Positions 28,448 through 32,530 of a stretch of 64,000 nt of DNA are shown one piece after another. Every line of letters starts with the position of its first letter. Position 1 is the first letter of the stretch. Source of the stretch: Arcobacter nitrofigilis DSM 7299 (GTDB lineage: Bacteria > Campylobacterota > Campylobacteria > Campylobacterales > Arcobacteraceae); assembly GCF_000092245.1 (NCBI RefSeq), contig NC_014166.1, positions 2,232,001 to 2,296,000 on the forward strand, given 5' to 3'. A program made the translations under genes and the position numbers. A model generated the notes under the pieces. The model was given only the letters and a program-made list of their open reading frames with translations. It was not told the DNA's origin and ran no database searches.

Positions 28448-29131
28448 ATGGATTATAATTTAGTTAACCAACTAAGAAGTTTTACTTTACTCTATGCAGA
28501 AGATGAGATTGGTATTCAAAATAATATTTTTGAAATTCTTGATTGCATGTTTAAAAACATATATCTAGCAAAAGATGGAGAAGAAGCCTATAAACTCTAC
28601 CTAGAAAAAAAACCTGATTTAATAATTACAGATATTAAAATGCCAAAAATGAGTGGTTTAGAGCTAGTCAAAAAAATAAGAGAATCTAATCCAAAGGTTC
28701 GAGTAATAATTACTTCAGCTCATACTGATTTAGAGTATCTTTTAGACGCAACAGAGCTTCATTTGGTAAAATATATTGTAAAACCAATAACAGAAGAGAA
28801 ACTAAGCCTTGCTCTAAAAGCTTTTATAGATAGTTTTGAAAATAGCACTATTTTTAATCTTATACCTTTATGGGTTTATGATGAGAGTAAAGCATTAGTA
28901 AAAGGACCTAGAGAAGAGTTTATACTTACTAAAAAAGAGAATATATTTTTAAAAATGCTTTTAGTAAAGGGAAGAATCATCACTTACCATGAGATTGAAA
29001 ATATTCTTTGGGAAGAGACTTCTATTATGACACAAAATGCCCTAAGGCTATTTATCAAAAATTTACGAAAAAAACTTCCAAAAAATATACTTAAAAATAT
29101 ACAAGGAACTGGATATAGACTAAATATCTAA
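28448..29131 (+). CDS. OmpR-family response regulator (probable DctR-type)
   Basis: A 227-residue regulator. The receiver domain (about 1-120) has acidic EDE at 18-20, the phosphorylated Asp in LIITDIKMPKMSGLELV (about 59), and the lysine of KYIVKPITEEKL. The C-terminal winged-helix domain (about 140-227) ends in LFIKNLRKKLPKNILKNIQGTGYRLN, the Trans_reg_C recognition helix and wing. It probably works with the divergent Cache kinase to switch on the dctP promoters, whose tandem CATAA repeats suit an OmpR-type dimer. Its end overlaps the converging membrane-protein gene by 12 bp. Confidence 0.9.
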   Translation: MDYNLVNQLRSFTLLYAEDEIGIQNNIFEILDCMFKNIYLAKDGEEAYKLYLEKKPDLIITDIKMPKMSGLELVKKIRESNPKVRVIITSAHTDLEYLLDATELHLVKYIVKPITEEKLSLALKAFIDSFENSTIFNLIPLWVYDESKALVKGPREEFILTKKENIFLKMLLVKGRIITYHEIENILWEETSIMTQNALRLFIKNLRKKLPKNILKNIQGTGYRLNI

Positions 29132-29905
29132 TCCAGGTTTTCTTATTTTATTTAACTCCACAAAATATCCATTTGATAAATATACTATAAAAAATACAGC
29201 AGAAAAAAGTGCTATAAAAGGTATCATTGACATAAAATATAATAATAAAGTTCTAAATCTAAATAGATTTTTTTTACTAGTATATATCTCAAAATACTCT
29301 CTAGAACTTAACATTGTAGATGTTACATCAAAATTTAAAAGCTTGTGAAAAAAGTAGAAAATAGGTAAATTAAAAGCAATAATATTTACTAAAGGTATAA
29401 AATAAAAAGGAATAAAAAGAATAAATAATAACATCATCACAATTACACTTTTAAATGCCACCCAAAGTGGAGAGACTAATGAACCATGACCTTTTAATAC
29501 CAAATCAGGATAATGTCTTTTTCGCAAAGTCTCTATAATCATAGGAGTTAAAAATCCAATAATAATCAAAGTTGTAAAAATAGAAAAAAACAATATAAAA
29601 AATGTACCTACTGTAAAAAGTAAAAATCCAGCTAACCAAGCAGTTATAGAATAGTGTAAAAGAAAAGTCAAAACATTGACTGCCCAAACATAATAAAATG
29701 GAGCATTTGGATCAACTGTAAACTCTTCTCCATTTTGTACTTGAATAATCACTTGATCTAAAGAAGATAAACTATAATCAGCAAAACCCATAAATATAAT
29801 AACCATAACTACAACGGTTACTAAAAGAGGTACAATCGCGATTTTTAATATTTGTGGTGTGAAAAAATCTTTCAAACTTTTCTTTATCAAATCTACTTCA
29901 TTCAA
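29120..29905 (-). CDS. EI24/CysZ-family membrane protein
   Basis: A 261-residue membrane protein with about four to five hydrophobic segments (about 20-40, 78-95, 98-125, 155-185, 232-252). The pattern, including KSLKDFFTPQILKIAIVPLL at the start and LPIFYFFHKLLNFDVTSTML, fits the EI24 domain family that includes the sulfate permease CysZ. The start is TTG at 29903-29905 with AAGGA upstream. It lies nine bases after the radical SAM gene, so the two are probably co-transcribed. Sulfate transport is possible, but no sulfur-assimilation gene lies nearby, so the substrate is open. Confidence 0.72.
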   Translation of the reverse strand: MNEVDLIKKSLKDFFTPQILKIAIVPLLVTVVVMVIIFMGFADYSLSSLDQVIIQVQNGEEFTVDPNAPFYYVWAVNVLTFLLHYSITAWLAGFLLFTVGTFFILFFSIFTTLIIIGFLTPMIIETLRKRHYPDLVLKGHGSLVSPLWVAFKSVIVMMLLFILFIPFYFIPLVNIIAFNLPIFYFFHKLLNFDVTSTMLSSREYFEIYTSKKNLFRFRTLLLYFMSMIPFIALFSAVFFIVYLSNGYFVELNKIRKPGLDI

Positions 29906-29914
29906 TATTAATCC

Positions 29915-30790
29915 TTATTTGTCAAATCTTGTTCTGTAAGAACATTTTTGGCAAAGTTCTTCAACTACAATGCCTTTTTTAAATCCATCTTTTATATCAT
30001 TTACTCTTTTTGAAGTTAATATATTTTGTAAACCATCTTCAAAAACATTTCCTAGGTTAACACAGGCATCCTTATCCAAACAACAAGGAACAGCTGTTCC
30101 ATTTGCTAATATACCAAAATGAGAATCTAAACCATAACAAAAACCTTTGTCTGATACAAATTCATTTTCCAAACTTGGCCACTCAAAATAATCATCAAAA
30201 TTGAAAAATATCTTTCTTGCAACTCTTATATTTTTGGGTTTTGCCACATAAAACTGTTCAATGTCTAAAGTCAAATCAAAGTATTCATAAGCTTTTTCAA
30301 AAACTTTTTTATTAAACTCTTTTGCACTTTTTTCTTCATCAAAATTCCAAATTCTCAAATTTATGAAAAATTCAACTTCTTTTTCCAAAGCATATTTACA
30401 AAAATCAAAAATAGGAGTCAAATATTCATCTAAACTTTTTTTATGAGAATTCCCATTATATGAATTAATTGAAAAGTTTATTTGTTTTATTGCACTATTA
30501 CACAAAGATTCAAATTGTTCTTCTTTTAAGTTATATCCAGTAGTTGTAAGATTAACTTTTAAACCATGATTTTTACTTATGTCTAAATATTGATTTAAAT
30601 TTGACACAACCAAGGGATCACCAACTACATGATATGCTAACTCTTTTGTAACACTTGAGAGTTCACTATTTATCTTTTCAAACTTATCTAAACTCATTGT
30701 AGCATTTGGTAAGTTTTTTGGAGGACAAAAGGAACATTTTAAGTTACAGATATTGGTTATTTCGATATGTACTTTTTTAAAATTTTTAAT
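29915..30790 (-). CDS. Radical SAM/SPASM protein with an apparent ATT start codon
   Basis: A 291-residue protein when read from ATT at 30788-30790. The frame is open only back to a TAA three bases before AGC-ATT, and contains no ATG, GTG or TTG until codon 32 (ATG at 30695-30697), which lies after the catalytic CNLKCSFC motif (CxxxCxxC, the SAM-binding [4Fe-4S] site, from about residue 16). AAGG lies six bases before the ATT, ideal for initiation there. The C-terminal SPASM-like cysteines are CYGLDSHFG, PCCLDKDAC and ELCQKCSYRTR. The substrate is unknown. The gene precedes the CysZ-like gene and is divergent from the helicase gene. Confidence 0.8.
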   Translation of the reverse strand: MKNFKKVHIEITNICNLKCSFCPPKNLPNATMSLDKFEKINSELSSVTKELAYHVVGDPLVVSNLNQYLDISKNHGLKVNLTTTGYNLKEEQFESLCNSAIKQINFSINSYNGNSHKKSLDEYLTPIFDFCKYALEKEVEFFINLRIWNFDEEKSAKEFNKKVFEKAYEYFDLTLDIEQFYVAKPKNIRVARKIFFNFDDYFEWPSLENEFVSDKGFCYGLDSHFGILANGTAVPCCLDKDACVNLGNVFEDGLQNILTSKRVNDIKDGFKKGIVVEELCQKCSYRTRFDK

Positions 30791-30851
30791 GCTTTACCTT
30801 TAAAATAATTTTGGGAAGAGGAATAAAATTGAGATATTATACACTATTTGA

Positions 30852-30857: not shown

Positions 30858-30892
30858 CACTCTTTTAAAATACAAAACTAAAAGGAATAGTT

Positions 30893-32197
30893 ATCAAAAC
30901 TTTCAATAATATAAAACTTTGTTCAGAAATTTTAAAAGCTCTTGAAGAAGAAGGTTATGAAAAACCAACTGAAGTTCAAGAAAAAGTAATACCTGTATTA
31001 CTTAAAAATAGTGATGTAATTGCAACTGCACAAAGTGGTACAGGTAAAACTGCTGCCTTTGTACTTCCTATTTTACAAAAACTTTTTGAAACACAAGATA
31101 ATGATTCTACAAATAAAAGAGTTCTTAGAAGTTTGATTTTAGTTCCTACAAGAGAATTAGCAAAACAAATAGAAAAAAGCATCTCACACTATGGAAGATA
31201 TTTAGATATTAAACAGACTATTGTTGTGGGAGGATTAAGTCATAAAGAGCAAATTAGAAAAATAAATGCTGGGATTGATGTACTTGTTGCAACACCTGGA
31301 AGACTAATTGACCATATAAAAACAAAATCAGTAAACTTATCAAGTATAAATAATATAGTTCTTGATGAAGCTGATACTATGCTTGAAATGGGATTTTTAA
31401 AAGATATTGAACTTATCTTTTCCCAATGTGCAAAAACAAGACATATTGGAATGTTCTCTGCAACTATCAATCAAAATATTAAAAAACTTGCAAAAGAGTT
31501 TTTACACAAACCAGTTGTAATTGAAGTTTCATCACAACGTTCAGCTGTAGATATAATTGAGCAACAAATATATTTAATGGATGAAGATAAAAAAATAGAG
31601 TTTTTATCATATCTAATTGGTTCAGAAAATTGGGAACAAGTTTTAGTATTTGTTAATACTAAAGCAAAAGCAGATGAGATAACAGAACAGTTCAATTTAG
31701 ATGGACTAAAAACAGCTTGTATTCATGGAGATATAAAACAACCAGTTCGAGCAAGAGCACTGGAAGGCTTTAAATCAAAGTCATTAAGAGTACTTGTTGC
31801 AACTGATATCGCAGCAAGGGGAATAGATATAGAACTATTGCCAAATGTAGTTAATTTTGAATTACCTGAGACAACAGTTGATTATACACATAGAATAGGA
31901 AGAACAGGACGGGCTGGAAACCCAGGAGTTGCTACAACACTATTATGTGTAAAAGAGTATGTACAAATGGCTGAAATAGAAAAAGAGCTAATAATCAATA
32001 TACCAAGACTTACACATGATGAATATGAACTAAATGAAAAACAACCAAGAGTTGCAAGATTTAAAACACAATCACTTAGTCAGAAAAAAGGTTTAAGAGA
32101 TAAAAATAAAAAACCAAAAGATAAGGCTCAACTGCCTAAGAAAACAAAAAAGAAAAAAACAACAAAAAGAGATTCAAACAGAAGTTTTGGGAGATAA
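30893..32197 (+). CDS. DEAD-box RNA helicase (RhlE-like) with an apparent ATC start codon
   Basis: A 434-residue protein when started at ATC 30893-30895. The frame is closed upstream by TAA, and the first canonical start codon is a TTG at 31133, after the Q motif and Walker A, so starting there would remove essential parts. Motifs in order: Q motif EKPTEVQEKVIP, motif I AQSGTGKT, Ia PTRELA, II VLDEADTML, III FSATINQ, V ATDIAARGIDI, VI HRIGRTGRAG, then a lysine-rich tail of about 45 residues. AAAAGGA is correctly placed before the ATC. It would unwind RNA in ribosome assembly or mRNA decay. A small unknown gene follows three bases later. Confidence 0.88.
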   Translation: MKTFNNIKLCSEILKALEEEGYEKPTEVQEKVIPVLLKNSDVIATAQSGTGKTAAFVLPILQKLFETQDNDSTNKRVLRSLILVPTRELAKQIEKSISHYGRYLDIKQTIVVGGLSHKEQIRKINAGIDVLVATPGRLIDHIKTKSVNLSSINNIVLDEADTMLEMGFLKDIELIFSQCAKTRHIGMFSATINQNIKKLAKEFLHKPVVIEVSSQRSAVDIIEQQIYLMDEDKKIEFLSYLIGSENWEQVLVFVNTKAKADEITEQFNLDGLKTACIHGDIKQPVRARALEGFKSKSLRVLVATDIAARGIDIELLPNVVNFELPETTVDYTHRIGRTGRAGNPGVATTLLCVKEYVQMAEIEKELIINIPRLTHDEYELNEKQPRVARFKTQSLSQKKGLRDKNKKPKDKAQLPKKTKKKKTTKRDSNRSFGR

Positions 32198-32200
32198 GAT

Positions 32201-32530
32201 ATGATGGATATGATTTTAAATGAAAATGACTTAGTAGTAGGTGCAAGTTTTGAAAATGGAACAATTCAAGATTATGTTGATGAAACAAACACCTATGGAC
32301 TAATAAGAATAGAAGATACTACGGTAAATTGGTTTTTGCATAACCAAGATGATGCAAGTGAAGAGATGCAAAAATTATATGAAAAAGTAACTGCTAGTGA
32401 AAATCATTACATTAAAAATGATTTTGGTGAAGAGGTTGTACTTTTTGATAAAAAAGGAACTGTTTCATTTGAAGATTTTATTGAAAAGATAGATGAATAC
32501 TTGGATGTTGAATTAGTAAATGCTTTATAG
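32201..32530 (+). CDS. Small acidic protein of unknown function
   Basis: A 109-residue acidic protein not recognised. It reads MMDMILNENDLVVGASFENG at the start and contains GLIRIEDTTVNWFLHN and GEEVVLFDKKGTVSFEDFIE; no signal peptide, membrane segment or cysteine motif is seen. The predicted fold is mixed alpha/beta. GGGAGA, part of the helicase stop region, is the ribosome binding site, so its translation is tied to the helicase. It may be a partner of the helicase, but nothing shows this directly. Confidence 0.7.
   Translation: MMDMILNENDLVVGASFENGTIQDYVDETNTYGLIRIEDTTVNWFLHNQDDASEEMQKLYEKVTASENHYIKNDFGEEVVLFDKKGTVSFEDFIEKIDEYLDVELVNAL

Follow-up and report, generated by a model that had tools for sequence, protein, structure and literature searches.

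Conserved AUA, AUU and AUC codons as probable start codons of a radical SAM gene and of further genes in Arcobacteraceae

Known bacterial genes that begin with AUA, AUU or AUC (AUH hereafter) are few, and mostly they are single genes. The start of infC, the gene of initiation factor IF3, is AUU in E. coli, AUC in Streptomyces and AUA in Staphylococcus aureus; there too an AUH codon is combined with a good Shine-Dalgarno (SD) motif and conserved within a lineage, as in the radical SAM gene described here (PMC5472188, PMC13009471). In S. aureus, ccpN (AUA) and cvfC1 (AUU) likewise carry a conserved AUH codon and a strong SD; their initiation was mapped, and AUA and AUU were weaker than AUG in reporters (PMC13009471). 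A truncated annotation of Borrelia burgdorferi pncA, which starts at AUU, would drop an N-terminal catalytic residue (PMC13398362). Streptomyces sigR keeps the non-canonical GTC in 32 of 34 species, with GTT in the other two, and is repressed by IF3 (PMC5472188). In vitro work on IF3 found that nothing but Watson-Crick pairs is tolerated at the first two codon bases, with partial tolerance of weaker pairs at the third (PMC10158994); a set of starts that includes AUH and no codons with other first or second bases fits this finding.

The Arcobacteraceae case resembles each of these systems and differs from all of them. infC is autoregulated since its product reads start codons, whereas Arcobacter infC starts at TTG and the AUH genes encode a radical SAM protein, a helicase and metabolic proteins. 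The starts of ccpN and cvfC1 were tested by experiment, and these are other genes in another phylum. pncA is a single gene, while here several genes are concerned, family-wide; sigR differs in the first codon base, the non-canonical starts seen here being AUH only. The first-pass annotation of this DNA had compared the ATT codon with the starts of infC and pcnB, a comparison that is apt in kind. To find ORFs, the Arcobacter butzleri genome paper took ATG, GTG and TTG as the only starts (PMC2147049). We found no report of AUA, AUU or AUC starts in Arcobacter in the PubMed Central literature, a scope outside which many subscription papers lie.

The window, that is, the whole stretch of 64,000 nucleotides that was analysed, comes from a 3.19-Mb genome in a single contig with 28.7% GC. 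Its nearest named loci are those of Arcobacter and Aliarcobacter MAGs. The features around the radical SAM gene are as follows.

29915..30790, minus strand: radical SAM/SPASM gene read from ATT, 292 codons with the stop; Pfam Radical_SAM and SPASM above cut-offs
30788..30790, minus strand: proposed ATT start codon of the radical SAM gene; ATA, ATT or ATC in 74 of 77 readable clade genomes
30794..30796, minus strand: TAA in the radical SAM frame, one codon (AGC) before ATT
30797..30800, minus strand: AAGG, Shine-Dalgarno motif of the radical SAM gene, ending 6 nt before ATT
30836..30841, minus strand: TATAAT, likely -10 element of the radical SAM gene by consensus match only
30725..30748, minus strand: CNLKCSFC (CxxxCxxC motif), codons 15-22, upstream of the first canonical start
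29942..30139, minus strand: SPASM domain of the radical SAM protein (Pfam)
29120..29905, minus strand: gene of an EI24/CysZ-like membrane protein, directly downstream of the radical SAM gene; in the family, a member of this protein family usually follows (64 genomes)

Along the minus strand, the start region reads AAGG (30800-30797), TAAAGC and ATT (30790-30788), and the frame is closed by a TAA at 29917-29915; on re-reading, the coordinates and the description of this region in the first-pass annotation were correct. The frame holds no ATG, GTG or TTG before the ATG at 30697-30695, which is codon 32 if ATT is codon 1. From this ATG a canonical-start ORF lister gives a product of 260 aa, without the cluster motif. 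The earlier warning that gene finders would truncate the gene is thus borne out for one program, that lister.

The family (code f1) is represented by 104 genomes, 93 of which encode the radical SAM protein at E 1e-40; in the phylum the protein is widespread (250 of 397 genomes at E 1e-30). The start region was read in 92 of the 93 family genomes, leaving out G101, where a contig end cuts the gene. In a tree built from the first cysteine onward, most genera and the deeper genus g20 form a clade of 78 rows (SH-aLRT 95); one of them, G026, is masked at the start, which leaves 77 readable. Their start codons are ATA in 51 genomes, ATT in 20 and ATC in 3, or AUH in 74 of 77. Among them, the genomes of three species of the genus from which the window comes have ATT, ATA and ATC. 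The exceptions are two genomes of genus g6, whose ATG is the codon just before the column, and G064, with TTG. Among 14 genomes of the sister genera g7, g8, g11 and g12, 12 have ATG, one has GTG and one is unassigned, and the loci sampled from other families carry ATG, GTG or TTG in place (40/40). Assignments were made by eye for G034, G064, G040, G041, G100 and G102 and for the sister genera. Changes between AUH and canonical codons on the tree total three, which we read from the sampled sequences as one switch from canonical to AUH at the origin of the main Arcobacter clade and two returns to canonical.

The first-pass annotation had named this comparison as a check, in which a conserved ATT would support its reading. 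The orthologous start regions do favour ATT as the start, as relatives have ATA, ATT or ATC and not ATG; however, the conserved feature is AUH, and its commonest form is ATA. In 50 of the 74 AUH genomes no ATG, GTG or TTG precedes the cysteine motif, and in the genome of the window a stop lies one codon upstream; there, the complete conserved protein cannot be had from a canonical start.

The position of the coding boundary can be read from substitutions. Changes were counted by parsimony over 70 genomes, a set without g20, g3 and one genome that has masked bases; the start column changed 0, 0 and 11 times at its first, second and third base. Codons 2-30 show 3.0, 2.3 and 11.2 changes per position, and the eight codons upstream of the start column 15.0, 16.6 and 14.5, with no third-base excess. 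As the substitution pattern changes there, coding begins exactly at the AUH codon.

The GG of an SD-like motif stands 6, 7 or 8 nt before AUH in 10, 41 and 23 of the 74 members, respectively. No such motif occurs within 18 nt of the start in any of the 16 canonical-start family members of the radical SAM gene; of the long genes of the genome, 320 out of 551 have one at 3-13 nt. The median duplex energy with a typed anti-SD is -5.1 kcal/mol for AUH members and about 0.5 for sister ATG members; for 49 control genes of the window the energy is -3.7 kcal/mol. AUH is thus paired with a strong SD, whereas ATG lacks one, as though the two compensated for each other in initiation strength; this correlation extends over few lineages. 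Most genomes that do not belong to genus g9 have a TATAAT-like box, recognized by consensus match only, about 28-42 nt before the codon, and its position implies a short leader there; in g9, 6-12 nt separate the AUH codon from the end of an upstream gene. Taken together, the forced position, the SD spacing, the abrupt coding boundary and the AUH codon in 74 of 77 genomes support the original proposal that ATT is the start.

That proposal treated one gene; the adjoining helicase and further genes also appear to start at AUH. Their features are listed below, the first three in the window and the others elsewhere in the genome.

30893..32197, plus strand: RhlE-type DEAD-box helicase gene read from ATC, divergent neighbour of the radical SAM gene; no canonical start until TTG 31133, which comes after the Walker A motif
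30893..30895, plus strand: proposed ATC start codon of the helicase gene; ATA, ATT or ATC in 33 of 33 family loci read
30880..30886, plus strand: AAAAGGA, Shine-Dalgarno motif of the helicase gene
L214:4974, plus strand: HI0933-like flavoprotein gene, putative ATA start kept in family relatives
L199:8141, minus strand: UbiB-like kinase gene, putative ATA start kept in family relatives
L196:14155, plus strand: ProV-like ATPase gene, probable ATT start kept in family relatives

The helicase has a match in 96 of the 104 family genomes. Its start was read at 33 family loci (30 + 3), and all of them have AUH with an SD spacing of 7; canonical-start ORF calling cuts the protein past its Walker A motif. 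One sister-genus locus has ATG. Among 17 loci of other families with a comparable N-terminus, 16 are canonical and one, in G111, is ATC-like; eight f2 loci belong to a longer paralog with canonical starts upstream.

The HI0933-like flavoprotein, which scores above the TIGR00275 cut-off, has AUH in 32 of 33 family loci; G034 has ATG, and in G088 a GTG stands alongside. Outside the family a canonical codon is in place in 25 of 26 loci, and the start in G157 looks like ATA. The UbiB-like kinase has AUH in all 30 family loci, two of them with a TTG nearby. For the ATPase of the ProV type (betaine ABC), AUH stands at SD distance in 27 of 29 family loci; this case is less certain because 8 of the 29 have an in-frame ATG or TTG within about four codons upstream, and we regard the gene as probably AUH-started. 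The alignments with the curated profiles RhlE, TIGR00275 and ProV begin at profile positions 1-4, just after the AUH codon.

We scanned 864 kb of the same genome (G000; 800 kb plus the window) for codons that stand at SD distance within N-terminal extensions of coding-like character. AUH codons qualified in 9 of 105 cases and the remaining codons in 8 of 688 (Fisher 9e-5), and with a looser coding threshold, which admits the radical SAM gene, in 12 of 127 versus 10 of 843 (3e-6). The same scan of 400 kb of a control genome, G403, gave 1 of 22 for AUH and 2 of 204 for the others, a sample too small for a contrast with G000. On inspection a few hits are false; we regard as false or unsure the candidate at 426733 (plus strand), which has a true ATG start within, as well as 703959 of the reversed strand, the Aat-like 376791 and the AEC-like 128619. 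AUH candidates come to about 1% of genes; of the first canonical starts in the 800 kb, 419 of 551 are ATG. Candidate AUH starts on contig C1 of G000 lie at about 151120, 387353 and 128619 (plus strand) and 376791 (minus strand), in histidine-kinase-like, membrane sensor, AEC transporter-like and Aat-like genes, respectively.

AUH initiation thus has the appearance of a conserved multi-gene habit of Arcobacteraceae. It is probably not exclusive to them: single AUH-looking starts in G403, G111 and G157 suggest sporadic use elsewhere in the phylum, where the habit may have an earlier origin or have arisen repeatedly. These outside cases are in the first 400 kb of G403 (reversed strand, about 285139), at L438 and L380 in G111, and at L425 in G157.

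The initiation machinery of the genome looks ordinary. The initiator tRNA copies that were read are of the ordinary kind, with a CAU anticodon, a mismatch C1:A72 and the three characteristic G-C pairs. As for a special initiator tRNA with another anticodon, only ordinary CAU tRNA-Met genes were seen, with ARAGORN covering 48 of the 55 tRNA genes. IF3 is present, aligns along its length with solved IF3 proteins and is unremarkable in sequence. Its gene (L195:10022-10549, minus strand) starts at TTG and is joined to thrS by an overlapping start; TTG is the infC start in G000 and in all of the 15 infC loci, out of 30, at which the start region was read. infC therefore failed as a positive control for AUH, and the autoregulatory sign of an AUH codon on the genome's own infC is absent.

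We consider it highly probable that the radical SAM gene starts at ATT 30788-30790, that the main Arcobacter clade has retained an AUH codon there from its beginning, and that AUH initiation is shared with other genes. The ordinary initiator tRNA (CAU) would pair with A and U and tolerate the third-base mismatch, while the SD would keep the 30S subunit in position at the AUH codon. IF3 would disfavour the resulting complex, so that little protein would be made, in an amount depending on the fidelity of initiation. Such a start would also serve the adjoining DEAD-box helicase, the HI0933-like flavoprotein, the UbiB-like kinase and probably the ProV ATPase. By analogy with other bacteria, low and IF3-sensitive expression of the AUH genes is likely. 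As a tentative extension, AUA, AUU and AUC would belong to the working start codons of Arcobacteraceae and serve about 1% of genes, with a core (the radical SAM enzyme, the RhlE-type helicase, the HI0933-like flavoprotein, the UbiB-like kinase and the betaine ABC ATPase) held at AUH family-wide as a fidelity-sensitive set, whose outputs would move together with the supply of IF3 or initiator tRNA.

It is rather unlikely, though conceivable, that AUH is instead near-neutral here, through a relaxed initiation fidelity (an altered IF3 or ribosome) and with no regulatory meaning. AUH is common to genes of unrelated function, and the third base, always A, T or C, drifts at almost the rate of 4-fold sites. 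Changes among these three bases number 12 for the radical SAM gene and 17 for the other four AUH genes together; ATG arose once, and one codon away from the column, where 4-fold sites would predict about 4-5 changes to G. Selection against ATG at the third base does not reach significance in the radical SAM gene by itself and is weak in the pooled genes, so that avoidance of ATG at these starts is weakly supported. However, ATG prevails among the first canonical starts and AUH makes up only about 1%, while neutral AUH starts would be expected to be common at such a GC content; and neither IF3 nor the initiator tRNA departs from the ordinary in sequence. The rarity of AUH genome-wide argues for a normal preference for AUG, and the absence of AUG from these genes throughout the history of the family suggests a weak start that is selected.

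We think it very improbable that the AUH codon is an internal isoleucine, with translation starting upstream via a frameshift or readthrough. AUA, AUU and AUC are the three isoleucine codons, and they swap freely at the third base as a synonymous site would. Nevertheless, an in-frame stop lies one codon upstream in 8 of the 74 AUH genomes and within three codons in 24, the upstream codons have no coding pattern, and the -10-like box in most genomes outside g9 leaves no room for an upstream frame in a short leader. The SD stands 6-8 nt from the AUH codon in 74 of 74, and in the two g6 genomes the ATG is the codon immediately preceding the column. A canonical start further upstream is likewise rejected: 58 of the 74 genomes have no in-frame ATG, GTG or TTG there, and the other 16 have one, in no case at SD distance.

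A start at ATG 30697 (codon 32), with the upstream part untranslated, is scarcely credible. This methionine is nearly invariant and is where the canonical-start lister begins, but the CxxxCxxC motif would be lost, codons 2-30 are under strong amino-acid constraint, and outgroup proteins with ATG starts have the same N-terminal stretch. A base-calling error or a private mutation of ATG, from which ATT is one base away, has practically no chance, being refuted by the relatives (AUH in 74 of 77 clade members; ATT, ATA and ATC among genus-mates), and by their sequences the observation is neither a sequencing error nor a fresh mutation.

The product read from ATT matches Pfam Radical_SAM at 42.7 bits (cut-off 29.5), with the CxxxCxxC motif present, and SPASM in its C-terminal part at 44.8 bits (cut-off 21.5). 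Cysteines 217, 235, 236, 279 and 282 are invariant in 23 aligned radical SAM sequences. No named NCBIfam equivalog was found: 38 families match at E 0.01, and the best 25 of these 38 are all below their curated cut-offs, the best match among those listed being TIGR04317 (63.5 bits versus a cut-off of 380). The nearest solved relative by sequence is BtrN (E 5e-17), and the top Foldseek matches are MoaA and BtrN. The AlphaFold2 model, made with 4 sequences, is weak (mean pLDDT 59.7, pTM 0.66); it puts residues 5-9, which precede the cysteines of CxxxCxxC, in a strand. A role as a dehydrogenase or maturase, suggested by these resemblances, is only a guess, and the EI24/CysZ-like gene downstream points to no clear pathway.

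A family that keeps AUH in several core genes would offer a natural system for asking why a weak start persists and whether fidelity acts as a shared control. Start and pseudogene calls in Arcobacteraceae, a family with species found in animals and in humans, should be revisited: read from canonical starts, the enzyme loses its iron-sulphur motif and the helicase its ATP-binding motif.

In 29 other genomes of the family, the small gene that follows the helicase at 32201-32530 (plus strand) directly adjoins the radical SAM gene; the helicase therefore intervenes only in some genera.
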